Shown here: positions 808 to 26,466 of the stretch, in pieces
How positions within the stretch are numbered: position 1 is the stretch's first letter
Layout of the letters: every line of letters begins with the position of its first letter
IMG/VR virus record: IMGVR_UViG_3300009181_002628
Location: 1-31,956 of that record
Reading direction: 5' to 3' (one strand)
Length of the DNA stretch: 31,956 bases
Source: a virus
Notes under the pieces: model-generated
The model's database searches: none
The model's input: the letters and a program-made list of their open reading frames with translations, nothing else
Told to the model about the DNA's origin: nothing
Position numbers and translations under genes: made by a program

Positions 808-1848
808 TTAAGAAACAATACTCACCGCGTCTTTGTTGTTTTTCCAGAAGTTATACAACTGTTGGGCACCTAAGTTCTTCGATTTACTTTCGCACATGAT
901 ATCGAACTGATCACAAAAACCACCGGCCCATGTGTTTACTGCTGTATTCCAATAAAAGTCCGAATGCGCCCTTAACTTTTGTTTTTTATGTCCAGCTAAG
1001 AGCAAAGCGCCCAGATCTGGAAGAATATCGGCAGGATGATCTGTGAGTAGATCTTCACGACTGACGGAATAGTGCATAGTAGGACGATGCCCACGCCAAC
1101 TATCAATAACTTGTTGCACCCGGGCATCGTCAGGTTGTATATATTCCCCTTCTCTAATAAAGTGATGATGTATGTCAAGAACACAAGGTACAATATCGGC
1201 AAGGCTAAGACAATCAGCAAGTCCATGTGTTATTTCTTCATTTTCGATGGTGATACAGTTGCGGGCTTCAACACTGAGCTTGTTCCAAGCACGTCGGATT
1301 CCTTCGGGGCCTTGCCTACCTGAGATGTGTACGTTGATTTTAAAATCCTGGAAGCTTTTGCCAAATCCCATCCACCGGGCCATATCTGCATGATATTCAA
1401 ACTCCTCTATACTACGAACAACAATGTTTTCATTTACACTGGCCAGCACACAAAATTGTCCAGGATGGAAACTTATACGCACACCCAATCGTCGTGCAGT
1501 TTCGCCCACCGGAGCAAATATACGTTCCAAATGATCTTGGATTTCTCTACGTTGCCACCAGGCCTGCCAATCTTGTTGGGTATAGCCTTGTAGCATTTCA
1601 CTACCTAGCCTGACCATACGCAACTCGGGTGCTAAACTACCCACACGTTCGATCATTTTCACAGCCGCAGCGGCATTGTGATTCATTATGTCCCATTGGC
1701 GCTGTTCAGCTTCGGCAGGATGCTCGCGTAACCAACGCATGGTGGTACTACGCCCATTTAAGTCACGATCCACAGCATTCACCTTCATGCCGCCACATTC
1801 GGACGGATCATTTAACCATTTGCAAGCAAAACCAATTTTACCACGCAT
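808..1848 (-). CDS. uvsE: UV-damage endonuclease UvsE/UVDE
   Basis: UVDE-family enzymes nick DNA 5' to UV photoproducts and start alternative excision repair. The 346 residues match the family length and carry its TIM-barrel metal-binding motifs in order: SFHPGQF (126-132), NVH (172-174), IENEE (201-205), DIHHH (225-229), MHYS (258-261), HSDF (295-298) and a C-terminal CESKSK. The N-terminal IGFACKW is the usual first barrel strand. The ATG at 1848 has AAGGA upstream, and a strong sigma70 promoter (1879-1907) points to early expression. T4 itself uses the unrelated DenV glycosylase, so this is a functional replacement. The downstream gene has its own promoter, so uvsE is probably transcribed largely on its own. 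Confidence 0.95.
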   Translation of the reverse strand: MRGKIGFACKWLNDPSECGGMKVNAVDRDLNGRSTTMRWLREHPAEAEQRQWDIMNHNAAAAVKMIERVGSLAPELRMVRLGSEMLQGYTQQDWQAWWQRREIQDHLERIFAPVGETARRLGVRISFHPGQFCVLASVNENIVVRSIEEFEYHADMARWMGFGKSFQDFKINVHISGRQGPEGIRRAWNKLSVEARNCITIENEEITHGLADCLSLADIVPCVLDIHHHFIREGEYIQPDDARVQQVIDSWRGHRPTMHYSVSREDLLTDHPADILPDLGALLLAGHKKQKLRAHSDFYWNTAVNTWAGGFCDQFDIMCESKSKNLGAQQLYNFWKNNKDAVSIVS

Positions 1849-2324: not shown

Positions 2325-3239
2325 TTATATATTTCGTACTATATCCAACGTGGTACAATGAAATCCACCGCCCAGAGTTCTACTATGACGTAGTTCCAAC
2401 GGTATAACGGTAAATTTGTACTGTGTTAGTTTATCTATTATTTTTTTCTGATGTTTATCAACAATGACTGTATGTGGATCAACAACTAAAACATTCATTG
2501 CTATCCATTTACTTGCATAGGGATATTGATAAAAATCCTGCTCATAAACATCATCAATCCAAATCTTGTTCCAATCATCAAACGCACGTGGGCAATTTTT
2601 TTCAGTCACCCGAGCTGCATTTAACATTACCAATCCTTCGCGTAACGGAACAATAGTTGAATATACGTGTACTCCGGCATAGAAATTACATCGTTCAATA
2701 TTGACTGTAGGAAAATGTTGCTGTAGCCAAAATAATGCGGCGCGGTTTCCACTAGCACTTTCGAGGTATATCCATGTATCTCCTAGTCTACATACGTTAG
2801 CTGCATCAAATACCAGCCCAGGTTCGCGTGGCATGGTTATCACAGTCTTTGCACGATTAACCACGTTTGCTAACGCATGTATCTCTTGATCTCTGCATGG
2901 ATACATCATTGCACAATCTACTACAGTTGATCCTGCAACTAATATTCGATCTCGTGGACAATAATTATACATACCAGCTGTTTTAACAAAATCTATTTCT
3001 TTAGGTCTATGAACAATAATACCAAGATTATGTAATGTTGCTGCTAGTATATCTAAATCCTCATTAGCTTCATCGATTATCCATTGTGGGACAGGCCCAG
3101 ATGGTACCGGAGTTTCTTTCCATTTTGTACGGGTATATTCCATTGCAAATACTGGATCTGTGCTTGGCCAATTTGCTCCAGTTGCCGATCCTACTACCAC
3201 TTCTCGCAACGGATCCCATTCATTAAATGATGATATCAC
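2325..3239 (-). CDS. Amidinotransferase-like (pentein) enzyme
   Basis: Related to glycine/inosamine amidinotransferases, which move an amidino group from arginine to an amine through a covalent cysteine intermediate. The 304 residues show the family landmarks: N-terminal FNEWDPLREVVVG (5-17), FDAANVCRLG with the catalytic-type Asp145, GVHVYST with His191, and C-terminal LGGGFHC with the nucleophile Cys295. This Cys/His/Asp triad matches human AGAT in kind and order. It is shorter than bacterial members (about 350-390), lacking part of the N-terminus. It starts with GTG at 3239, directly after the TAG of the upstream dioxygenase-like gene, so the two are coupled. The acceptor substrate cannot be read from the sequence; arginine deiminase or dihydrolase activity is a possible alternative. 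Confidence 0.85.
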   Translation of the reverse strand: MISSFNEWDPLREVVVGSATGANWPSTDPVFAMEYTRTKWKETPVPSGPVPQWIIDEANEDLDILAATLHNLGIIVHRPKEIDFVKTAGMYNYCPRDRILVAGSTVVDCAMMYPCRDQEIHALANVVNRAKTVITMPREPGLVFDAANVCRLGDTWIYLESASGNRAALFWLQQHFPTVNIERCNFYAGVHVYSTIVPLREGLVMLNAARVTEKNCPRAFDDWNKIWIDDVYEQDFYQYPYASKWIAMNVLVVDPHTVIVDKHQKKIIDKLTQYKFTVIPLELRHSRTLGGGFHCTTLDIVRNI

Positions 3240-3758
3240 CTAAATATGTCCGGTGAGTTGTAATGTATATCGCGGAGCAAGACCAAGATTAGCAGCCATG
3301 TGTGACGTATCATAAGCCCATTCGACTGTGTCACCAGCTTGCCAATTTACATATGGTTTATCCACTTGCTCAGAGTAATGTCCTGGTTGCCAATCTTCTA
3401 AAAATACCACTGCTCTACGTATAGTATGTTCTTTACCTTGAAGATTGAATAATGAAATATATCGTAGATAAAGATCACCATGTGTGGGTAACACCGTGCC
3501 GGTGGACATGCGATAGTAACTTGTACCAATATCTTTCCATCCTAGCGTAGCATAATGCTCGATAAATTTACAATTCCAACTTGGTTGTTGCTCACGCATA
3601 TCACACATATCACCAGTTACTTTGCTAGAATATCCTTGTTCTTTCCATAACTGTAATTTTGCCATATCATTAAAATCTTCGTTGCTATACTTTAGATATT
3701 TAAATTCTTCATTCCAAAATTTGAAGAATTTATATTTAATAATATCTTGATTAATCAT
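3240..3758 (-). CDS. Fe(II)/2-oxoglutarate dioxygenase-like protein
   Basis: 172 residues ending in a double-stranded beta-helix type domain. The HxD...H metal triad is visible as His93/Asp95 (PTHGDLY) and His153 (TSHMAAN), followed by Arg163 in PRYTLQLTG, the place of the 2-oxoglutarate-binding Arg. Between them lies FLEDWQPGHY (119-128), shared with the second dioxygenase-like protein at 24728-25453, so the two are paralogues. Family members hydroxylate proteins or small molecules; the substrate here is unknown. It is directly followed by the amidinotransferase, suggesting successive steps on one substrate such as an arginine-derived group (inference). The ATG at 3758 lies 14 bases from the ATG of the divergent gene. 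Confidence 0.7.
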   Translation of the reverse strand: MINQDIIKYKFFKFWNEEFKYLKYSNEDFNDMAKLQLWKEQGYSSKVTGDMCDMREQQPSWNCKFIEHYATLGWKDIGTSYYRMSTGTVLPTHGDLYLRYISLFNLQGKEHTIRRAVVFLEDWQPGHYSEQVDKPYVNWQAGDTVEWAYDTSHMAANLGLAPRYTLQLTGHI

Positions 3759-3772
3759 AACTACTTATATTC

Positions 3773-4981
3773 ATGAGTATTCCTTTAGATCGATTATATC
3801 ATTTTTTAGAAGACATCGTTAACGATAATATAATAATTTATCGTTTTTGGCCACATGGTTTAAAAAAGTTAGAAAATTTATTACCATTACGTGAATATTC
3901 GTGGAATAAACACATGTTTTCTCATATGGTAATATGTCATGATCAGGAACCACTGGATTTTGCATTATTTGGAAAATTAACAGATCCTTCAATACCGCTA
4001 ATATCAGATGATCATATTAAAGAGAGTGTTACTCGAAATATAAAATCAGTATCAGAATTTTCCACCGGCAATTTGACTTGTCCTAATTTTTATCTAGCAT
4101 CCAACGAAAAGATAATATGTCATTCCGAACAAAGATCAACACAATTAGATTTATATAAGAAATATGGATTTGTTGACGTTTATTATTGGAGCCATGCCAT
4201 TATAGCACAGGATTGGTTTAGATATGCTAAACATGATAGTGTATTGCTGCAAAAAAAACAAGATAGATATGATTTTTTAATCTATAATAGAGCATGGCAA
4301 GGCACACGAGAATATCGACTGCGATTTGCCGAAATGCTATTAGAAAACAATATTAAAGAATTTTGTAATATTCGATTCGCACCCATTGACGATAATGTTC
4401 ATTATCTAGATCATGCATATCATAATCAAAAATGGACTATACACACTAACCTTGAATCATATTATGATTTAAATACGTTTGATAGTACAGCCAGCGCCGA
4501 CTATACTTCATTGGATTATATTACAAGTAATATAGAGGTTGTGTTGGAAACATTGTTTGATGATGATAGATTACATCTAACTGAAAAAACATTGCGACCT
4601 ATTGCATGTCGACAACCATTTATGTTAATGGCCACACATGGTAGTTTAGAATATTTACGTCGATATGGATTTGAAACTTTTAACGATCTACTAGATGAAT
4701 CATACGATACTGTAATTGATCCTGTCGCAAGAATGGCCGCGGTTGTGGCTGAGATGAAAAGAATAACGCAACTACCACCTGCTGAAAAGATAGAATTATT
4801 TTCTAAACTTAATATAATTGCTGCACGTAATCAAGAGAGATTCTTCTCAGATGATTTCTTTGAACAAGTTACACAAGAATATAAAACAAATATCTCCCAG
4901 GCCATAACAATATGCGAACAAGGACGTCATCCGGCATGGCTTGCCGAAGTAAAGAAATTGTTAAGTAAGTCACATGACTAA
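3773..4981 (+). CDS. Glycosyltransferase-like conserved phage protein
   Basis: 402 residues on the plus strand, soluble. The C-terminal third has LTEKTLRPIACRQPFMLMA (269-287) followed by HGSLEYLRRYGFETF and LLDESYD. I know this signature from a family of uncharacterised proteins in marine and freshwater phages. The EKT...PI...PF arrangement resembles the donor-binding region of retaining glycosyltransferases, so sugar transfer is possible but unproven. The middle region YNRAWQGTREYRL (171-183) is also typical of that family. Codon use is very AT-rich compared with the structural genes, and the gene is divergent from the dioxygenase/amidinotransferase pair, which suggests acquisition as an accessory module. 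A bidirectional terminator follows it. Confidence 0.6.
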   Translation: MSIPLDRLYHFLEDIVNDNIIIYRFWPHGLKKLENLLPLREYSWNKHMFSHMVICHDQEPLDFALFGKLTDPSIPLISDDHIKESVTRNIKSVSEFSTGNLTCPNFYLASNEKIICHSEQRSTQLDLYKKYGFVDVYYWSHAIIAQDWFRYAKHDSVLLQKKQDRYDFLIYNRAWQGTREYRLRFAEMLLENNIKEFCNIRFAPIDDNVHYLDHAYHNQKWTIHTNLESYYDLNTFDSTASADYTSLDYITSNIEVVLETLFDDDRLHLTEKTLRPIACRQPFMLMATHGSLEYLRRYGFETFNDLLDESYDTVIDPVARMAAVVAEMKRITQLPPAEKIELFSKLNIIAARNQERFFSDDFFEQVTQEYKTNISQAITICEQGRHPAWLAEVKKLLSKSHD

Positions 4982-5036: not shown

Positions 5037-5762
5037 TTAGAATGATTTGCCAGCTGATAAAACAACTGCATTTTTGTACAGCTGACGATTATCTACTGTA
5101 TCAGCAACACGAACTGCCGAACCTAACCCAGCATTGGTGTAATAATGTGCACCAATTTTCCACCCGGTAAGATTATAAGTTGCACCAAGTTTGTAGTCGG
5201 TGTAATCTGCGGTGGTGGAATTGGCAACATTGGTACGGCCAATATGTGCATCTGCTGTTAACTTTACTGCCACTGGATAGCTAACATCAGCTTGGTAGTA
5301 TTGCGTACCTTTGCTGTTAACTGCACCAAAATAATCACTAATTGAACGGCTATACTTAACTGCAACAGGACCAGTGCTTACACCAACGTAAATTTCATTT
5401 GTGTCAAACCTTGGATTGTTGCCATTGGTGGCACGTTGAAAGAAATAATTGTAAGAGCCTACATCAAGTGTAACACCCTTAACTACTTCTGTCTTGTAAC
5501 CACCATAAATGTCACTTTCGGTGCCATTGCCATTGCGGTATACTAATGTGCTAACTGAACTATTCCAGTTACCGACATAGAATCCGTTGCCTGGAGCATA
5601 ATTAACACCACCTTGTACTGCCGAGCCATTTTGTGACTGGCTGATACCACGTAATTTATAATCTGTGGTTAATCCAAAGTTACCAGTTACTGGTGATGGA
5701 TCTGCAGCATAGGCCAAACTTGCGCCAACTGCTAATAGTACTGCTAAAATTACTTGTTTCAT
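5037..5762 (-). CDS. TorF-type outer-membrane porin (gcw_chp family)
   Basis: 241 residues from the ATG at 5762, chosen because it follows a purine-rich ribosome site and opens a textbook signal peptide (MKQVILAVLLAVGASLAYA, cleavage before ADPSP). The mature part begins TGNFGLTTDYKLRGISQSQ, the hallmark of the TorF/gcw_chp putative porins of proteobacteria. Alternating aromatic/polar strands continue to a C-terminal Phe (AGKSF), the signal for outer-membrane insertion by BAM. It should form a small beta barrel in the host outer membrane. Possible roles are altering permeability to nutrients or masking a receptor; neither can be read from sequence. A late-type promoter and a 5' hairpin precede it, and a terminator follows. 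A porin is very unusual phage cargo. Confidence 0.85.
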   Translation of the reverse strand: MKQVILAVLLAVGASLAYAADPSPVTGNFGLTTDYKLRGISQSQNGSAVQGGVNYAPGNGFYVGNWNSSVSTLVYRNGNGTESDIYGGYKTEVVKGVTLDVGSYNYFFQRATNGNNPRFDTNEIYVGVSTGPVAVKYSRSISDYFGAVNSKGTQYYQADVSYPVAVKLTADAHIGRTNVANSTTADYTDYKLGATYNLTGWKIGAHYYTNAGLGSAVRVADTVDNRQLYKNAVVLSAGKSF

Positions 5763-5782
5763 TATATTTCCTTTTTTAAAGT

Positions 5783-5801
5783 CTATCATCTTACATGATA
5801 G
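5783..5801 (-). other. 5'-UTR hairpin of the porin message
   Basis: A perfect 7-bp inverted repeat (5783-5789 with 5795-5801, 5-base loop). From the predicted late start near 5803, the message would begin almost at the first base of this stem. A 5'-terminal stem of this kind typically protects mRNA from decay. Confidence 0.5.
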
Positions 5802-5808
5802 CATAACA

Positions 5809-20513: not shown

Positions 20514-21227
20514 TCAAGTATTTAGCATATAATACTGTTCCACCTTCTCCCACCATTTGACCCGATACTTTTCAAACTCAGCACCTTCAACTATAAATTC
20601 TTGATATATTGGCTGTGTGGTAAAGTTTCCAGCTGCATCTACCGTGGGTTTAACGCACATTAGAATCACACCTTTACTAATTGTAGTCCCATGCAGGGCA
20701 TTATGTGCTTCTGCATACGCAGCTAATTGTATGAAATAATCATCAATCCATTCACGTTTCTTGGGACGATTAGTTTGTTTGTAATCAAGTATGCTTTCAG
20801 AATTTAAATGCAAGCCAGCACCATCTGTCGTTCCTGCATATACTTCCGGATAATACAGTGGTACTTCCACTCCCCAGAATTCATTGACGTTGCACAATCC
20901 CCGTTCAATTACCAACTGCGCCATGGCATGGCTAGGCCAACTAAATGGGTTTGTGCCACGTTGTTTAAGCTCACCAGTTTTGATATAGTCTTCCAAATAG
21001 CTGTGCATCCTGGTGCCGCGATTGGCTGCTTCTGTGGTAATTTCCTGTGCTTTTTTTACTCCCACAGTGGCACGCCATTTGGCAAGACCTTGACGTTTTT
21101 CTTCTGATTCTGTTCGACTTAGAATTGTAGTTACACTGGGCAAATTGCCACCGGGTGTAGAATACATACGACTGCCATTTACTGTTTGTCTTGATAGTGC
21201 TTGATAGTTAAATCGTTCGTTAAACAT
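20514..21227 (-). CDS. PD-(D/E)XK exonuclease (RecB/MGME1-like)
   Basis: 237 residues. N-terminal SVTTILSRTESEEKRQGLAK is the usual opening of phage and mitochondrial MGME1-like single-strand exonucleases. The catalytic core reads RGTRMH (His75), WGVEVPL (Glu121), AGTTDGAG (Asp135), ILDYKQ (Asp148, Lys150) and FIQLAAY (Gln167), the complete motif set. Only two cysteines are present, so it is not one of the nucleases that carry an iron-sulfur cluster. Its ATG overlaps the iscA stop (TAATG), so it is co-translated with the iron-sulfur pair. The probable role is DNA recombination/processing or host DNA recycling. Confidence 0.88.
   Translation of the reverse strand: MFNERFNYQALSRQTVNGSRMYSTPGGNLPSVTTILSRTESEEKRQGLAKWRATVGVKKAQEITTEAANRGTRMHSYLEDYIKTGELKQRGTNPFSWPSHAMAQLVIERGLCNVNEFWGVEVPLYYPEVYAGTTDGAGLHLNSESILDYKQTNRPKKREWIDDYFIQLAAYAEAHNALHGTTISKGVILMCVKPTVDAAGNFTTQPIYQEFIVEGAEFEKYRVKWWEKVEQYYMLNT
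20519..20525 (-). promoter_or_regulatory. Late-type promoter (CTAAATA) of the tail spike
   Basis: CTAAATA on the minus strand, within the end of the exonuclease gene; an AAGGA ribosome site follows before the spike ATG at 20492. It lets the late spike be expressed independently of the upstream operon. Confidence 0.6.
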
Positions 21228-21547
21228 TATATCCTAAATGATTCACCGCAACCGCAGCGGTCTTTTTCGAGAGTGTTGATAAAATCGAACCCTTCATTGA
21301 GTCCTTTGCGTGTGTAATCCACTGTCATGCCATCGATATACACCAAACTCTTGGGATCAACAAATATGTTACAGCCTTGTGATTCAAAACATTCATCGTC
21401 TGTGGTTGGAGTATCTACATATTCTAACACATAAGCAAGCCCTGAGCAACCGGTAGTTTTAACTCCAACTTTGATTCCAAGACCTCGACCACGTCGTTCT
21501 AATTGATTTTTTATTTTGGTTGCAGCAATTTCAGTTATGGTGATCAT
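21227..21547 (-). CDS. iscA: IscA/HesB iron-sulfur carrier
   Basis: A-type carriers receive Fe-S clusters from a scaffold and pass them to target proteins. The 106 residues contain the three cluster cysteines: Cys34 (TTGCSG) and Cys98/Cys100 (RCGCGESF), plus the family strand pair GIKVGVKTTGCSGLAYVLEY. Length matches host IscA. It overlaps iscU upstream (ATGA) and the exonuclease downstream (TAATG). The pairing with IscU argues that the phage adds to host Fe-S assembly. No IscS, HscA or ferredoxin is encoded, so host sulfur donors are needed. Confidence 0.95.
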   Translation of the reverse strand: MITITEIAATKIKNQLERRGRGLGIKVGVKTTGCSGLAYVLEYVDTPTTDDECFESQGCNIFVDPKSLVYIDGMTVDYTRKGLNEGFDFINTLEKDRCGCGESFRI

Positions 21548-21927
21548 GCTGTTTTTACTTTATTTTTATAGTCAGCAATAGCTGCCTTTATGCTATCTTC
21601 GGCAAGAATAGAACAATGTATTTTCACGGGCGGAAGTGCTAATTCGTTTGCAATAGCTGAATTGTTTATCGCATAGGCTTGATCCAATGTTTTACCTTTG
21701 ATCCATTCTGTCACCAACGATGAACTTGCAATCGCTGATCCACATCCATACGTTTTAAACTTGGCATCAACAATGATATTATCTTCTACTTTGATACTTA
21801 ATTTTAAAACATCACCGCAAGACGGGGCTCCCACCAGTCCAACTCCCACTGAGGTATCGTCCTTGGGGAATGATCCCACATTCCGGGGATTTTCATAATG
21901 GTCCAATAGGGCTTTACTGTATGACAT
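21544..21927 (-). CDS. iscU: IscU iron-sulfur scaffold
   Basis: IscU builds [2Fe-2S] clusters with sulfur from IscS. The 127-residue protein has all ligands: Cys37 and Asp39 (GAPSCGDV), Cys62 (TYGCGSAIASSS), His104 and Cys105 (KIHCSILAED). It also keeps LPPVK (98-102), the motif recognised by the chaperone HscA, so it can use host HscA/HscB. The start DHYENPRNVGSF is typical. AAAGGA lies before the ATG at 21927, directly after the hydrolase stop. Probable clients are host or phage Fe-S enzymes; none is certain in this window. Confidence 0.96.
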   Translation of the reverse strand: MSYSKALLDHYENPRNVGSFPKDDTSVGVGLVGAPSCGDVLKLSIKVEDNIIVDAKFKTYGCGSAIASSSLVTEWIKGKTLDQAYAINNSAIANELALPPVKIHCSILAEDSIKAAIADYKNKVKTA

Positions 21928-21928
21928 A

Positions 21929-22501
21929 TTATCCTTTTATTTTATCACGTATAATATCTACCACTGCCGGATTCATAATAACTTCGTAATGATTTGTATG
22001 TAACTTGATCAAGTGCATGTCAGATCGATACTGCATACTATTTATTGTGACCACCCCGTCATTTGCTCCAACTATCCACGGACTTGATCCACGTGTGGTT
22101 ACTATGTTGGTCCATGGGTGCTGTATCTTTATTTCGTTCGAAGCACGTATTGGCCAACTGCCTGGGCCAATGTCTTGCATAAGACGATTAAAAGGCAAAA
22201 AGTATTGTGCAAAATCGGCAATCTCGGCACCACCATACGGTGTGCTTATGGTAATCGCACCACGCACCTTATTCTCAATTGCATGGGCTAGATGTACTGC
22301 ATATATTCCACCGAGACTATGTGTTATGAAATATATATCATCTAGCCCACGTAACTGTTGTTGCATTTCTTTAAGATTATGCTCAAACCCATTAGCACTG
22401 TCATATTCGATTACCAAATCATCTGTGTGATTTAATTGATCTCGTATGTAATTGAAACTGTCACCGGTGGCACTGGCTCCATGAATATATACCAGCTTCA
22501 T
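21929..22501 (-). CDS. Alpha/beta hydrolase (lipase/esterase-like)
   Basis: 190 residues with the alpha/beta-hydrolase order: oxyanion strand KLVYIHGASATGDSF (2-16), nucleophile elbow THSLGG (Ser62), acid GANDG (Asp148) and histidine HTNHYEV (His171). The YGGAEIADF segment after the elbow is typical of lipase/acyl-hydrolase-like members. No signal peptide, so the enzyme is cytoplasmic. The substrate is unknown; candidates are acyl esters or lipids, for host lipid turnover or lysis timing. No Shine-Dalgarno is visible; a hairpin touches the start codon (22501-22517). It leads the IscU-IscA-exonuclease cluster. Confidence 0.8.
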   Translation of the reverse strand: MKLVYIHGASATGDSFNYIRDQLNHTDDLVIEYDSANGFEHNLKEMQQQLRGLDDIYFITHSLGGIYAVHLAHAIENKVRGAITISTPYGGAEIADFAQYFLPFNRLMQDIGPGSWPIRASNEIKIQHPWTNIVTTRGSSPWIVGANDGVVTINSMQYRSDMHLIKLHTNHYEVIMNPAVVDIIRDKIKG

Positions 22502-22517
22502 TATTGTCTTACAATAA
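22501..22517 (-). other. Hairpin overlapping the hydrolase start codon
   Basis: A perfect 7-bp inverted repeat with a 3-base loop (22501-22507 with 22511-22517); its last base is the A of the hydrolase ATG. With no Shine-Dalgarno nearby, it may control initiation, or act as a weak end signal for the small gene upstream. Confidence 0.4.
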
Positions 22518-22524
22518 GAGTATA

Positions 22525-22638
22525 CTACTTTTTCCTAAAGAAGTCAACTAATTTGACTTGGATACTTACTGCCCAGGATGGTTGTGGGAAGTTCCAACCT
22601 ACGAATGCACCAATTGCTAACCAGAATAGAGTTTCCAT
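22525..22638 (-). CDS. Tiny membrane protein (37 aa)
   Basis: A 37-codon gene from the ATG at 22638 to the TAG at 22525-22527. AAAGGA lies before the start and an AATAAATA late motif upstream. The protein starts METLFWLAIGAFVGWNFPQP, a single amphipathic/hydrophobic span, and ends with an amphipathic basic tail (VKLVDFFRKK). Similar 'GAFVGWNFPQP' mini-proteins occur in other T4-like phages, from memory; none has an assigned function. The dedicated promoter and ribosome site make it a likely real late gene, perhaps membrane- or virion-associated. Confidence 0.65.
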   Translation of the reverse strand: METLFWLAIGAFVGWNFPQPSWAVSIQVKLVDFFRKK

Positions 22639-22662
22639 TTTGTTATCCTTTTCGTTATGCTG

Positions 22663-22670
22663 TATTTATT
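22663..22670 (-). promoter_or_regulatory. Late-type promoter (AATAAATA) for the 37-aa gene
   Basis: AATAAATA on the minus strand at the end of the PP-loop gene, 24 bases before the ATG at 22638, one mismatch from the T4 late core. The ribosome site lies between. Confidence 0.6.
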
Positions 22671-23808
22671 GAATATTTCCAATAAAATGTAGTTTACCTG
22701 TATAGGCTCTAAGCCCAAGTAACTTGCCATTGCTTTCAAATGTAAGAAATTCGGGTATTATACTCACGATATGCTTTAATCCGGCGGCCCATATATCGTG
22801 TTCTCGTGTACCTGCCCATCCCTTGCTAAACCAATAGTCGAATTCACTATCCCATTCTTTAAGAGCCTTACTGACCTGAAACCAAGAAGTATTCCATGTT
22901 GTATATATAATTGTTTTAAGTAATTCTTCTCGAATACGTCTTGACACAACAGGATCATTTATTTCCCAAGCTTTTTTATACTGCTGATTTGTATTAATCC
23001 ACTTGAGAATAGTATGAGCTTGTTTGCATAGTATATCCACGCTATCGGGATCCCAATAGAAAAATAATGGTGTGGCATTGGGATATTCTGCAATATGATC
23101 TTGTACCGATACAATATTAGCAATCTTGTCACGAAATTGCAGATATAGTTTGTTGTCGATTATATTACAATTAGGTTTATCGCAACCAAATAATAATGCT
23201 ATTTTTTGAAATTTATCAAATCGTTTGCGTATATCATCAAAATAGATATAGTTAAACGTATTAGCACCATTTGCATTAAGTACTTCTTTTTTTGATTGTG
23301 TCCAACTTGCATCATCGGCTGTTAACAATCCATCTATTAGAGTTTTAGAAGTGTCTAGTATTGTTATCTTTGTTCTTGGTGACGCATTACGGATGTATTC
23401 TAGCTTGTCTACTGTGTTAAGCTTGAATTCTGCATTGTTGTTCCAGGGCGATCGTTCGGCTTTGTCATAAACTAAAAATTTTTCACTTATATCCAATGAC
23501 CAATTAGTGATGATTTCGTCTATTAGCAGTCCTTGCCTTAGGAAACTCTCAAGCACATTAAAGCTATCTGCACCACCGCTAAAACTTAATATGACATAAT
23601 CATATTCTTCACGTATTTGTCTTGCACGTTGATTATACAATTGGTCTAATTCTGATTCAGGTTCATCAGACCAATTGTGTTTATCAAATACGTCGTCATT
23701 AAAATGCCAAACTATCTCTTTTTTAACTGTTGCGGCATGTATCATGGCTTGAATTTTTGATTCAAACTCCATCCCAGCACATGTATAGTAGCCTAGCTTT
23801 TTAATCAT
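22666..23808 (-). CDS. PP-loop ATP-pyrophosphatase (asparagine-synthase-like)
   Basis: 380 residues. The segment VILSFSGGADSFNVL (72-86) carries the PP-loop SGGxDS that binds ATP pyrophosphate in N-type enzymes (asparagine synthase, QueC, tRNA thiolases, ExsB). These activate a carboxyl or carbonyl group by adenylation, then transfer an amine or sulfur. No glutaminase domain precedes it. The remaining 290 residues are rich in aromatic and charged residues, without recognisable partner motifs. I know similar proteins from phages of aquatic bacteria. Its ATG overlaps the tctC stop (ATGA), tying it to the transport cassette. Possible roles: base or peptide modification; the substrate is unknown. 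Confidence 0.75.
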   Translation of the reverse strand: MIKKLGYYTCAGMEFESKIQAMIHAATVKKEIVWHFNDDVFDKHNWSDEPESELDQLYNQRARQIREEYDYVILSFSGGADSFNVLESFLRQGLLIDEIITNWSLDISEKFLVYDKAERSPWNNNAEFKLNTVDKLEYIRNASPRTKITILDTSKTLIDGLLTADDASWTQSKKEVLNANGANTFNYIYFDDIRKRFDKFQKIALLFGCDKPNCNIIDNKLYLQFRDKIANIVSVQDHIAEYPNATPLFFYWDPDSVDILCKQAHTILKWINTNQQYKKAWEINDPVVSRRIREELLKTIIYTTWNTSWFQVSKALKEWDSEFDYWFSKGWAGTREHDIWAAGLKHIVSIIPEFLTFESNGKLLGLRAYTGKLHFIGNIQ

Positions 23809-24719
23809 TTACTATCTGGTACTTTTGCCTTTGCTGATTGTGCTGCCCAGAATTTAACTTGGTCAGCATACCATTTTGTCTCTTGTTCTTGCGTCATATT
23901 AGCTGGATTAGAAAATTCACGTGCATATGATTCAATTACTGCAGGGATTTTATTTGCTTGTTTAAATAATTCATGTAGTTCTTTAACCTTGACGTCTGGC
24001 ATTTCTTTTGCAGCAACAATAACAGAATTTGATGACAGCCTGTCAAGTCCGGGTACAGCCTGGGATGCAAATGTTTTAAATGTTTTAACATTTCGTGTAC
24101 CAGTTAAGCCAAGTGCATAGGTTTCACCGCTATCCAATATACCATCAACGTCTGACAGGAAATTCCACCCTGCATCAATGTGCCCTCCCAATATATCTTT
24201 GTTAGCATCAGTTAGATTTGTATAGTTAATAATACGAACTGCAGGAAACACATCCTGCAATGCACTTGCCATTAGATGACTGCTGCTGCCCCATCCGCTA
24301 ATAGATACAGTAAAATCTTTTGATTTCTTCAAGTCATCAATTGTTTTATTTTTCTTACTCATTAATACCAATGGTGCGCCTAATGTTTGTACAAATACTG
24401 GTTTAAAATTTTCAGCATTATATCCAGTGTCTTTATAAAAGTTTGGACGGATGAAATAGCTGCTGGTACCACCATAGATCGTGCTCTGTGGATTTTGAGC
24501 TGTATAATTAACAGCAATTGCTCCACCATTACCTGGCCGGGCATCAAATACAATTTCGTATTTGTCCTGTGTTGCATTTATTTGTTTAATTAGTAATCGA
24601 TAGATATTGGCAACACTGGCAGCTGGGCTAAATCCAAATGTCAATGTAATCTTTTCAGCTGCTGCCGCAGATGAAATCATTGCGCTCAATAGTACTCCAA
24701 ATAATATTTTCTTAAACAT
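23805..24719 (-). CDS. tctC: TctC/Bug-family periplasmic solute-binding protein
   Basis: The binding component of tripartite tricarboxylate (TTT) transporters, which captures carboxylates in the periplasm. 304 residues with a signal peptide (MFKKILFGVLLSAMISSAAA, cleavage before EKITLTF). The mature part has the family order: FGFSPAASVANIYRLLIKQI, RPGNGGAIAVNYTAQ, YKDTGYNAENFKPVFVQTLG, and a C-terminal helix with YADQVKFWAAQ. This is a complete, intact-looking protein, not a remnant. The membrane parts TctA/TctB are absent, so it would need host permeases. A binding protein exported by a phage is comparable to PstS in cyanophages (family knowledge). The ligand is unknown. Confidence 0.9.
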   Translation of the reverse strand: MFKKILFGVLLSAMISSAAAAEKITLTFGFSPAASVANIYRLLIKQINATQDKYEIVFDARPGNGGAIAVNYTAQNPQSTIYGGTSSYFIRPNFYKDTGYNAENFKPVFVQTLGAPLVLMSKKNKTIDDLKKSKDFTVSISGWGSSSHLMASALQDVFPAVRIINYTNLTDANKDILGGHIDAGWNFLSDVDGILDSGETYALGLTGTRNVKTFKTFASQAVPGLDRLSSNSVIVAAKEMPDVKVKELHELFKQANKIPAVIESYAREFSNPANMTQEQETKWYADQVKFWAAQSAKAKVPDSK

Positions 24720-24727
24720 GATATCCT

Positions 24728-25453
24728 TTATAATGTGTGTGGTAAAAAGTTATACGTTCCTATTATAGCATTAGTTCTTGCTGTTCGCAAGCCTGTGATC
24801 TGTAATGTGCAACGTGAATGTTCGCTGGCGTTTGCGGTAGCATGTGGAATGTTTACCCAATCATGCATGTGAATATCACCAGCAGCCCATTTTTGATAGA
24901 CTGAATTTCCATATTGATAAAATTGTCCCGGTTGCCAATCTTCTAACATAACCGTAATACGTACTATATCTTTTGGATCGTAGTCAAATTTATCACCTGG
25001 TTTAGCATCTGGTCCGGCAAATAGCCTATGTATTGGATCAAGATGCATGGTAAACATTTGCCCGGTATATTGTACATGGATACGGGCTTGTGTTCTGTCT
25101 AAACAGAAATAATCGATGATTTTTTGTAGTTTGGGATATTTGGTAAAATCATCTGTGATATCTGTCACTTCAATTTTCTTAATATCCCCGCCACCTTTTG
25201 CAAGGTCTGCGGCACGCTTATCGTAACCAATTGGATATTGATTTCCGCCGCCGGCGTAAGTTATTGTTTCCCAATTAGTTGGATTTGAATCGGCTTTGAT
25301 TTGATCAATATACTCTGCCCATGTATTGTCAAATCTACCGATTACCTTAAAGGCTTCACCCGGCCGGTCTTCTTGTTTATTATTGAAATGGTAAGTGCTT
25401 TGCTGCTTAGTCCATTCCCATAAAGAGTCATACTCAGTTAGTGATTTTGTCAT
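24728..25453 (-). CDS. Fe(II)/2-oxoglutarate dioxygenase-like protein, second copy
   Basis: 241 residues from the ATG at 25453. Its double-stranded beta-helix keeps HLD (His137, Asp139), a distal His204 (IPHATAN) and Arg214 (SRCTLQITG), the metal and 2-oxoglutarate ligands. MLEDWQPGQF (169-178) and KWAAGDIH match the same places in the protein at 3240-3758, so the two are paralogues with different N-termini. It lies between the TctC and TRAP-like binding-protein genes. A longer frame starting from a TTG at 25498 overlaps the preceding stop. A perfect inverted repeat with a CTAAATA motif ends three bases before the ATG, and no Shine-Dalgarno is visible. Substrate unknown; aspartyl/asparaginyl-hydroxylase-like action is a possibility. 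Confidence 0.72.
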   Translation of the reverse strand: MTKSLTEYDSLWEWTKQQSTYHFNNKQEDRPGEAFKVIGRFDNTWAEYIDQIKADSNPTNWETITYAGGGNQYPIGYDKRAADLAKGGGDIKKIEVTDITDDFTKYPKLQKIIDYFCLDRTQARIHVQYTGQMFTMHLDPIHRLFAGPDAKPGDKFDYDPKDIVRITVMLEDWQPGQFYQYGNSVYQKWAAGDIHMHDWVNIPHATANASEHSRCTLQITGLRTARTNAIIGTYNFLPHTL

Positions 25454-25455
25454 GC

Positions 25456-25491
25456 AAATATTTAGTGAGTGAATCGGCTCACTAAATATTT
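25456..25491 (-). promoter_or_regulatory. 14-bp inverted repeat containing two CTAAATA motifs
   Basis: Perfect arms 25456-25469 and 25478-25491 with an 8-base centre. Each arm contains CTAAATA, one on each strand, so the repeat is a pair of face-to-face late-type motifs. The minus-strand copy (25465-25459) ends six bases before the ATG at 25453. It may be a promoter, a protein-binding operator or an RNA hairpin controlling the dioxygenase-like gene. No T-tract follows, so it is a poor terminator. Confidence 0.55.
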
Positions 25492-25494
25492 TCT

Positions 25495-26466
25495 TCAATG
25501 TTTTGAACTACTGATCAATGATGTAACTAACCCTGGACTAAAATAGTTTTGATATTTACTGTAGATACCAGCTGTGGCAGATTCAAATTTGCTTTTTTCT
25601 GCAGCACTCATTCTAATAGTAGGAATGCCTTGTGCCGCTGCTTTAGCTTGTACTACAATATTATCATTTAAACTGTCAATGCGTTCGACTTTTGCTGCAC
25701 GAAGAGCTGCTGCTGAAAAGATTCGTTGTACTGATTCACTTAGCGATTGCCATATCTGTTTGTTAATAACCAAACTTGTAAGGAATAAACTATGCTCATT
25801 ATCATTGATATAATTAGTTTGTTCATCATGACCAAGGATAAAGAAACGTGTATAAGTGGTTTCGCCCCCCTCAACTTCTTTATTAGCAAGTTTTTCTTTA
25901 AGATCTTCTATGAACATAGGAACTGGTTTAGCACCAACAGCTTTAAATGTATCAACAACAACTGGATTTTTACCACAGCCAATATTCATATTATAAAAAT
26001 CTTCTAATGTTTCTATTGCATTCTTGCTTGGAACAATTCTAAACCCACCCGAATATGTAAATGCAAGACCACGTACATTGCTATGATCAGCTACCTTAGC
26101 TAACAAATGTTGGCCAACTTCACCATCTAATGTTTTCTGGGCAGATTCATGATCATGGAATAAAAATGGTAAGCTTAGTGCATACATATCCTTGTCAATG
26201 CGGCCTAATGTACTGGCATATAATGTTGCCATATTAATAGTACCATCATCAACAAGGTCAATGATTGCTTCACGACCAACATGACAAGTAGTGAGTCGTG
26301 TGTCATTGCCGGCGTATGATGCATTCCATTCAGTTAAATCAATCACATTGATTTTGTATTCGCCCTTTGTTTCTACCAGGACTTCTTCGGCAAATTGCTT
26401 CGCTGCTTTAATAAACACATGATATGGTTCATGTGCCAAAACCCAATTTAATGTAATTTGTTTCAT
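25495..26466 (-). CDS. TRAP (DctP-like) binding protein without signal peptide
   Basis: 323 residues of the DctP fold: ITLNWVLAHEPYHVFIKAAK near the start, MATLYASTLGRIDKDMYALS, LPFLFHDHESAQ, GFRIVPSKNAIETLEDFYN and VVVDTFKAVGAKPVPMF, in family order. The protein starts directly at the mature domain: the ATG at 26466 has AAGG upstream, and there is no hydrophobic N-terminus. It should stay in the cytoplasm unless packaged. The family's ligand-binding Arg (usually in KIR before the PVxVxTFKALGA segment) seems replaced (NIGCGKNP). It may therefore be repurposed, for example to sequester a ligand or as a virion component. A CATAAATA motif precedes it. Confidence 0.8.
   Translation of the reverse strand: MKQITLNWVLAHEPYHVFIKAAKQFAEEVLVETKGEYKINVIDLTEWNASYAGNDTRLTTCHVGREAIIDLVDDGTINMATLYASTLGRIDKDMYALSLPFLFHDHESAQKTLDGEVGQHLLAKVADHSNVRGLAFTYSGGFRIVPSKNAIETLEDFYNMNIGCGKNPVVVDTFKAVGAKPVPMFIEDLKEKLANKEVEGGETTYTRFFILGHDEQTNYINDNEHSLFLTSLVINKQIWQSLSESVQRIFSAAALRAAKVERIDSLNDNIVVQAKAAAQGIPTIRMSAAEKSKFESATAGIYSKYQNYFSPGLVTSLISSSKH

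Follow-up and report, generated by a model that had tools for sequence, protein, structure and literature searches.

A recurrent phage gene cassette that joins TctC- and DctP-type solute-binding proteins to an oxygenase-like protein and a virus-specific PP-loop family

What would a phage do with two solute-binding proteins whose genes are interleaved with those of two putative enzymes? The question is raised by the virus record IMGVR_UViG_3300009181_002628, of which positions 1 to 31,956 were analyzed (the window, 31,956 bases in length). Four contiguous genes on its minus strand encode, in the order of transcription, a DctP-like protein, a 2-oxoglutarate (2OG)-oxygenase-like protein, a TctC protein and a PP-loop protein. 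An earlier note on this DNA had placed the four genes there, and their presence at those positions is confirmed, with Pfam matches of the TctC and DctP proteins, the 2OG family triad and an SGGADS motif in the PP-loop protein. The genes constitute a distinct phage module, as that note had proposed; the module is recurrent, and its neighborhood is conserved far above chance. Our favored answer, held tentatively and at somewhat less than an even chance, is that the module captures a small carboxylate and then converts it. The features are as follows.

25495..26466, minus strand: DctP-like protein with a TRAP-type (tripartite ATP-independent periplasmic) solute-binding fold, 323 amino acids, without signal peptide (Pfam PF03480, 1e-43; NCBIfam TRAP_S1, 1.6e-37)
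25456..25491, minus strand: perfect 14-bp inverted repeat (hairpin), RNA fold -16.8 kcal/mol, z -3.85
24728..25453, minus strand: Fe(II)/2OG-oxygenase-like protein, 241 amino acids counted from ATG 25453
23805..24719, minus strand: TctC/Bug-type periplasmic solute-binding protein, 304 amino acids, Sec-type signal peptide at about residues 1-21 (Pfam PF03401, 7e-13)
22666..23808, minus strand: PP-loop protein, 380 amino acids, SGGADS motif, virus-specific family with an AsnB/beta-lactam synthetase-like predicted fold
21929-22501: alpha/beta hydrolase, inside the interval 21929-26466 that the earlier note gave for the cassette

The DctP-like gene, preceded by an AAGGA Shine-Dalgarno sequence, is the first of the cassette. 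An 8-base gap precedes the TctC gene on its 24728 side, and the TctC and PP-loop genes overlap by an ATGA at 23805-23808, both as previously described.

Recurrence of the gene set in other phages is the central observation. Relatives at 27-69% identity were recovered from 2.9 million viral contigs in four scans, each with a single protein, and two profile scans contributed a further 80 and 46 loci. The order DctP-2OG-TctC-PP-loop was found again in L004, L017 and, with one extra gene, L009, at 42-67% protein identity; three or more further phage contigs thus have it, and partial or multicopy forms exist in dozens. The search of related phages for the gene order, suggested in the earlier note, has thus revealed a conserved neighborhood, and the refuting outcome named there, separate genes in relatives, did not arise. 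Loci L007 and L008 have the order DctP-2OG-TctC. The 2OG gene is replaced in L005 and L003 by a gene for a 230-residue protein following DctP, and in L009 the same protein precedes the 2OG gene; from its DEAKH and DEKFH motifs, and with weak Pfam support, it is read as a ferritin-like diiron protein. In many loci the TctC, DctP and PP-loop genes form arrays, with several paralogs of each kind of gene. The cassette is found in the replication/PhoH region of L004, L009 and L017 and beside tail genes in L007.

The clustering can be quantified over 75 non-redundant loci, where 44 of 66 TctC genes have a PP-loop gene no more than three genes away; a TctC gene is equally close to 24 of 28 DctP genes. 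Same-strand TctC/PP-loop neighbors number 33, against a mean of 6.8 after shuffling, and none of 2000 shuffles reached as high a value. These loci were collected by searching for cassette members, and the cleaner figures are those for co-occurrence per query: a PP-loop gene is present in 14 of 24 non-redundant loci found with TctC, and a binding protein in 19 of 42 found with the PP-loop protein. The TctC/PP-loop association is strong, not obligatory. Pairwise divergences among TctC proteins correlate with those among the adjacent PP-loop proteins (Mantel r 0.65, 0/5000 permutations), a correlation to which shared phage ancestry could have contributed a part. Gene junctions include overlaps of the ATGA type, which is typical of co-translation.

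The cassette is encoded on a genuine phage genome. Genes of the window include those for a phage exonuclease, ribonucleotide reductase, DNA ligase and tail or virion proteins. Among 30 related records, with contigs of up to 524 kb, 9 have a terminase match and 8 a match to the T4-type major capsid protein gp23, which makes 12 records in all. Bacterial contamination is ruled out by the phage genes throughout the window and by the terminase or gp23 genes of the relatives. Cultured phages gave no match to the window in a DNA search and none to the TctC and PP-loop proteins in protein searches. The same search with the DctP protein gave 13 records, with identities of 21-28%; several of these records resemble bacterial DNA deposited as phage.

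The PP-loop protein belongs to a large, virus-specific family that hardly occurs in the cellular genomes searched. Its relatives occupy 417 viral loci, whereas 84,980 genomes of bacteria and archaea yielded one occurrence and a profile search found the family in 1 of 369 genomes; in both cases the occurrence is on one and the same orphan contig, of a Methylococcaceae metagenome-assembled genome. The SGGxD motif is present in 90 of 91 full-length copies, and the remaining one has SAGSDS. No Pfam or NCBIfam model matches the protein, and several unnamed relatives are present in the viral structure library. The AlphaFold model (predicted template modeling score 0.86), when compared by VIA-align, is closest in its predicted fold to the amide-forming asparagine and beta-lactam synthetases: AsnB (1ct9) aligns with Z 10.9 over 282 residues at a root-mean-square deviation of 5.2, beta-lactam synthetase with Z 9.9 and carbapenam synthetase with Z 8.9, the synthetase group as a whole ranging over Z 8.5-10.9 and 238-282 residues. 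Other PP-loop families score below Z 8 over about 170 residues. A weak PHROG match (E 0.049) had pointed to a 3'-phosphoadenosine 5'-phosphosulfate reductase, which ranks far lower by fold (Z 6.8). Profile matches in the PDB to a DNA methyltransferase were discounted; they cover 65 residues and find no backing in the comparison of folds. Another unnamed PP-loop family, with a TSGLDSQ motif, is encoded near the first in 11 non-redundant loci (L041:2318-3298 and related loci).

The TctC protein has the attributes of an exported binding protein. It scores 49.1 bits against a cut-off of 27 with the PF03401 profile, and its own profile matches solved Bug/TctC/TphC structures (best 4.6e-23). Signal peptides were called with a simple hydropathy heuristic; that of the window protein is of the Sec type, MFKKILFGVLLSAMISSAAAAEK. 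The heuristic is passed by 63 of 65 phage TctC proteins, the other two being leader-like as well, so the signal peptide described for the window is kept across the phage copies. The phage sequences group apart from 13 cellular TctC proteins with a support of 94, in a tree whose cellular sample is small. A TctA permease is encoded in 5 of the 30 related records (G015, G017, G028, G019 and G021). In two of the five it adjoins TctC and PP-loop genes, and two of the five also carry phage hallmark genes. The order in G015 is TctC, TctB-like, TctA, PP-loop. In G017, which has a T4-type capsid gene, one strand encodes, in this order, a porin, an unassigned protein, TctA, a signal-peptide protein with FPPGGGSD, and a PP-loop protein. 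G028 has TctB and TctA; G019, where it lies next to the terminase, and G021 have TctA with PP-loop neighbors. Gram-negative porin genes score above cut-off in 7 of 31 records, and the porin of G017 is two genes from TctA. The TctA and porin genes support real solute uptake and Gram-negative hosts, and the porin type, together with the abundance of TctC in betaproteobacteria (PMC5812351), leads us to infer betaproteobacterial hosts. Carboxylate uptake through the TctC protein is plausible, given the signal peptides of the phage copies and the TctA genes of related records.

Two further observations concern TctC and its permease. A separate TctC subfamily repeatedly adjoins small sulfotransferase-like (P-loop) proteins and 2OG genes (L003:14220-15802; L009:15259-16811; L121; L129), which is a second recurrent pairing. 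In L155, a 158-kb viral record, a gene of the tryptophan-halogenase family (3100-4677; PF04820, 1e-84) is found three genes upstream of TctB-TctA.

The DctP-like protein tells a different story. Membership of the family is clear, with 150 bits against a cut-off of 23.4 for PF03480, and yet a signal peptide is present in none of 24 full-length non-redundant phage copies. Of 26 cellular controls that the same profile retrieved, 25 have one, and the 26th falls just under the leader threshold. The N terminus of the phage copies is that of the mature domain, [W]VLAHEP..., and is not preceded by a hydrophobic leader. A missed upstream start that would supply a leader is excluded by a stop codon in frame, nine codons before the ATG in the window, and by the 24 of 24 leaderless relatives. 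In a tree with 22 gammaproteobacterial sequences, the phage copies are one clade with a support of 99. The phage type was not found in 397 other Pseudomonadota genomes, the single exception being a 3-kb orphan contig, also with PP-loop genes, in the Methylococcaceae assembly mentioned above; that contig is probably viral. In most SiaP homologs an arginine forms a salt bridge with the substrate carboxylate (PMC5812351). This residue is kept in 22 of 23 alignment rows from cellular genomes (the virus-like L166 being among the 23) and in 15 of 24 phage DctP proteins; it is glycine in the window protein and glycine or serine in all six members of its subclade. The DctM permease (PF06808) was detected in none of 31 records, which may be fragments, and was detected in the control genomes. 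With no leader, a single viral clade, the arginine lost in the window's subclade and no TRAP permease found, the DctP-like protein of the window has the DctP fold by family and is very unlikely to serve as a TRAP uptake receptor. Of the two carboxylate-type binding proteins proposed in the earlier note, TctC, with its conserved leaders and TctA in 5 of 30 records, is thus a plausible uptake receptor, and a pair of parallel uptake receptors is not supported. The suggestion, in the same note, of a link through 2-oxoglutarate as ligand is speculative.

The 2OG-oxygenase-like protein is the least securely placed. The invariant metal-binding triad and arginine of the 2OG family, H137xD139...H204...(+10)R214, are present in seven proteins, and the window protein aligns over 36% of its length, at 33% identity, with a 2OG-Fe(II) oxygenase of a cyanophage. 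No Pfam or NCBIfam model matches it. The predicted structure is of low confidence (predicted local distance difference test 60), and its best matches are 2OG oxygenases at a Z of only about 7, too weak for placement in a family. The start of the gene is most likely ATG 25453 rather than TTG, because the conserved N terminus of the relatives begins there. An overlap at 25495, part of the earlier description of the junctions, needs the TTG start; with the ATG there is no overlap with the DctP stop, and a 41-base gap between the genes holds the 14-bp hairpin. In T4 gene 38, a Shine-Dalgarno sequence is brought close to the start codon by a hairpin. A GAAG just before the hairpin in the window could likewise serve as a Shine-Dalgarno sequence brought close to the 2OG ATG; the hairpin could instead function in processing or termination. 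The window encodes another, distant 2OG-oxygenase-like protein (HGD...H...R) at 3240-3758 (minus strand), far from the cassette.

We present a hypothetical route of capture and conversion. Gene content and order, recurrence, the presence or absence of leaders, viral specificity and co-occurrence with TctA are observed; the reaction assigned to each protein and the way in which the steps are coupled are inferred from family and fold. The TctC protein would be exported to the periplasm, bind an organic acid and pass it to a TctA(B) permease of the host or, in some phages, of the phage. The cytosolic PP-loop protein would convert ATP to AMP and pyrophosphate, activating a carboxylate and condensing it with ammonia or an amine. 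Substrate or product would be hydroxylated by the Fe(II)/2OG enzyme, and in some relatives a ferritin-like diiron protein would act instead or in addition. The leaderless DctP-like protein would remain cytosolic and bind or carry substrate or product, with no role in transport as a receptor. A more specific version, which we regard as possible and somewhat more doubtful than capture and conversion in general, is that this is an undescribed phage system: a virus-specific, amide-synthetase-like PP-loop enzyme would be fed by an exported TctC and a secondarily cytosolic DctP, now devoid of a leader and, in the subclade of the window protein, of the arginine for the carboxylate, and would make or modify a specific small molecule during infection, with arrays of paralogs for different ligands.

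Several points weigh against capture and conversion. Profiles detect no relation between the PP-loop family and AsnB, and hhalign with E. coli AsnB gives a probability of 0.9%, so the proposed PP-loop chemistry depends on the predicted fold and one motif. No binding protein is found within about 7 kb in 23 of the 42 non-redundant PP-loop loci; with about half of the loci in this condition, the PP-loop family evidently works without binding proteins too. The nearest-neighbor partners of TctC and PP-loop proteins agree in just 4 of 19 pairs, so strict one-to-one co-inheritance of the paralogs is not shown. No TctAB permease is recognized among the annotated genes of the window, which is a fragment; host permeases may serve its TctC protein. 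In addition, TctC proteins may serve in sensing as well (PMC5812351).

This last point leads to the alternative that survives best, plain nutrient uptake or sensing, in which TctC would boost uptake by the host's tripartite tricarboxylate transporter (TTT) or feed a host sensor, as a counterpart of cyanophage PstS; the PP-loop protein and oxygenase would be merely co-transcribed and belong to other pathways. The TctC signal peptide and the TctA and porin genes of related records speak for it, and about 40% of loci found with TctC have no PP-loop gene in reach. It is nevertheless unlikely, though it deserves serious consideration, because TctC and PP-loop genes are paired repeatedly, in both orders and in multicopy arrays, and because it leaves the leaderless DctP clade unexplained. 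Less likely again is a biosynthesis or modification module in which the PP-loop protein, oxygenases and neighboring enzymes would produce a modified metabolite, nucleotide or protein group, with precursors or product carried or sequestered by the binding proteins. Radical S-adenosylmethionine, ATP-grasp, sulfotransferase-like, methyltransferase and halogenase genes are neighbors in various relatives, two types of oxygenase are associated with the cassette, and beta-lactam and carbapenam synthetases are among the nearest folds; the neighboring enzymes, however, differ between phages, and only the core families recur widely. That unrelated accessory genes simply gathered in a variable phage region, with no shared function, is very improbable. 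Such regions are rich in other accessory genes and gene order differs between relatives, but the shuffle test, the paired divergence, the ATGA-type overlaps and the single viral clade of leaderless DctP all speak against hitch-hiking, which is strongly disfavored by adjacency conserved at about 30-50% protein identity. Most doubtful of all is a role of the leaderless DctP, TctC or both against competitors or the host, as virion component, periplasmic decoy or agent of superinfection exclusion, for although divergent multicopy arrays could reflect an arms race and some cassettes lie beside tail genes (L007), the ligand-binding folds and catalytic motif are retained, the location varies and the TctA association is left unexplained.

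How does capture and conversion compare with known systems? Cyanophage PstS is likewise a phage-encoded periplasmic solute-binding protein of bacterial origin (PMC6359870), but it is a single binding protein, whereas the cassette has members of the TctC and DctP families, arrays of paralogs, fixed partner enzymes and one binding protein without a leader. With TctCBA and the orphan Bug/TctC proteins of proteobacteria, the window TctC shares its family and signal peptide, and TctA/TctB homologs are found in some related phage records; unlike them, it has no adjoining permease gene, sits with PP-loop and 2OG genes and belongs to a phage group that is set apart from the cellular sequences sampled. 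The phage DctP proteins are clear members of the DctP fold family but differ from TRAP receptors in the absence of a signal peptide and of a DctQM partner and, in the window's subclade, in the replaced arginine. The PP-loop protein resembles AsnB and the beta-lactam and carbapenam synthetases in its predicted fold, over nearly the whole protein, and in the SGGxDS PP-loop, and differs in lacking a glutaminase domain and any detectable sequence relation and in being virus-specific. A gene with a tctA domain and a 2OG-Fe(II) oxygenase gene, separate from each other and with no explained role, have been reported in SUP05 viral contigs; in the part of that report considered here, no TctC, DctP or PP-loop cassette is described (PMC4164917). 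We found no description of the cassette in the open-access PMC literature. We place the cassette with the phage auxiliary uptake genes and consider it a serious possibility that the system is of a new kind. A recurrent TTT-type receptor, sometimes with its permease, coupled to dedicated enzymes would mean that phages encode a whole route of uptake and conversion. A DctP clade with a lost export signal represents an unusual relocation of a transport receptor and offers a direct test of the role of a binding protein in the cytosol. The PP-loop proteins are a large unnamed family of putative viral enzymes whose predicted activity is easily assayed.

The alpha/beta hydrolase gene lies 164 bases from the PP-loop gene and does not recur with the cassette in relatives. 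It is unrelated to the conserved cassette and outside it, so the interval 21929-26466 contains the four cassette genes and is too long by this gene. Between the PP-loop and hydrolase genes, 22525-22638 (minus strand) is an open reading frame of 37 residues, which include one hydrophobic segment; its Shine-Dalgarno sequence, AAAGGAT, is strong. Right after the hydrolase gene, at 21227-21927 (minus strand), are IscU-like and IscA/ErpA-like Fe-S assembly genes, and an IscU fragment is found near a PP-loop pair in L021. Elsewhere in the window, 5037-5804 (minus strand) encodes a Gcw_chp family protein (PF09694, 1e-45) with a signal peptide, possibly an outer-membrane barrel, and 808-1848 (minus strand) a UvdE-type UV endonuclease (PF03851, 6e-29) in this phage record.

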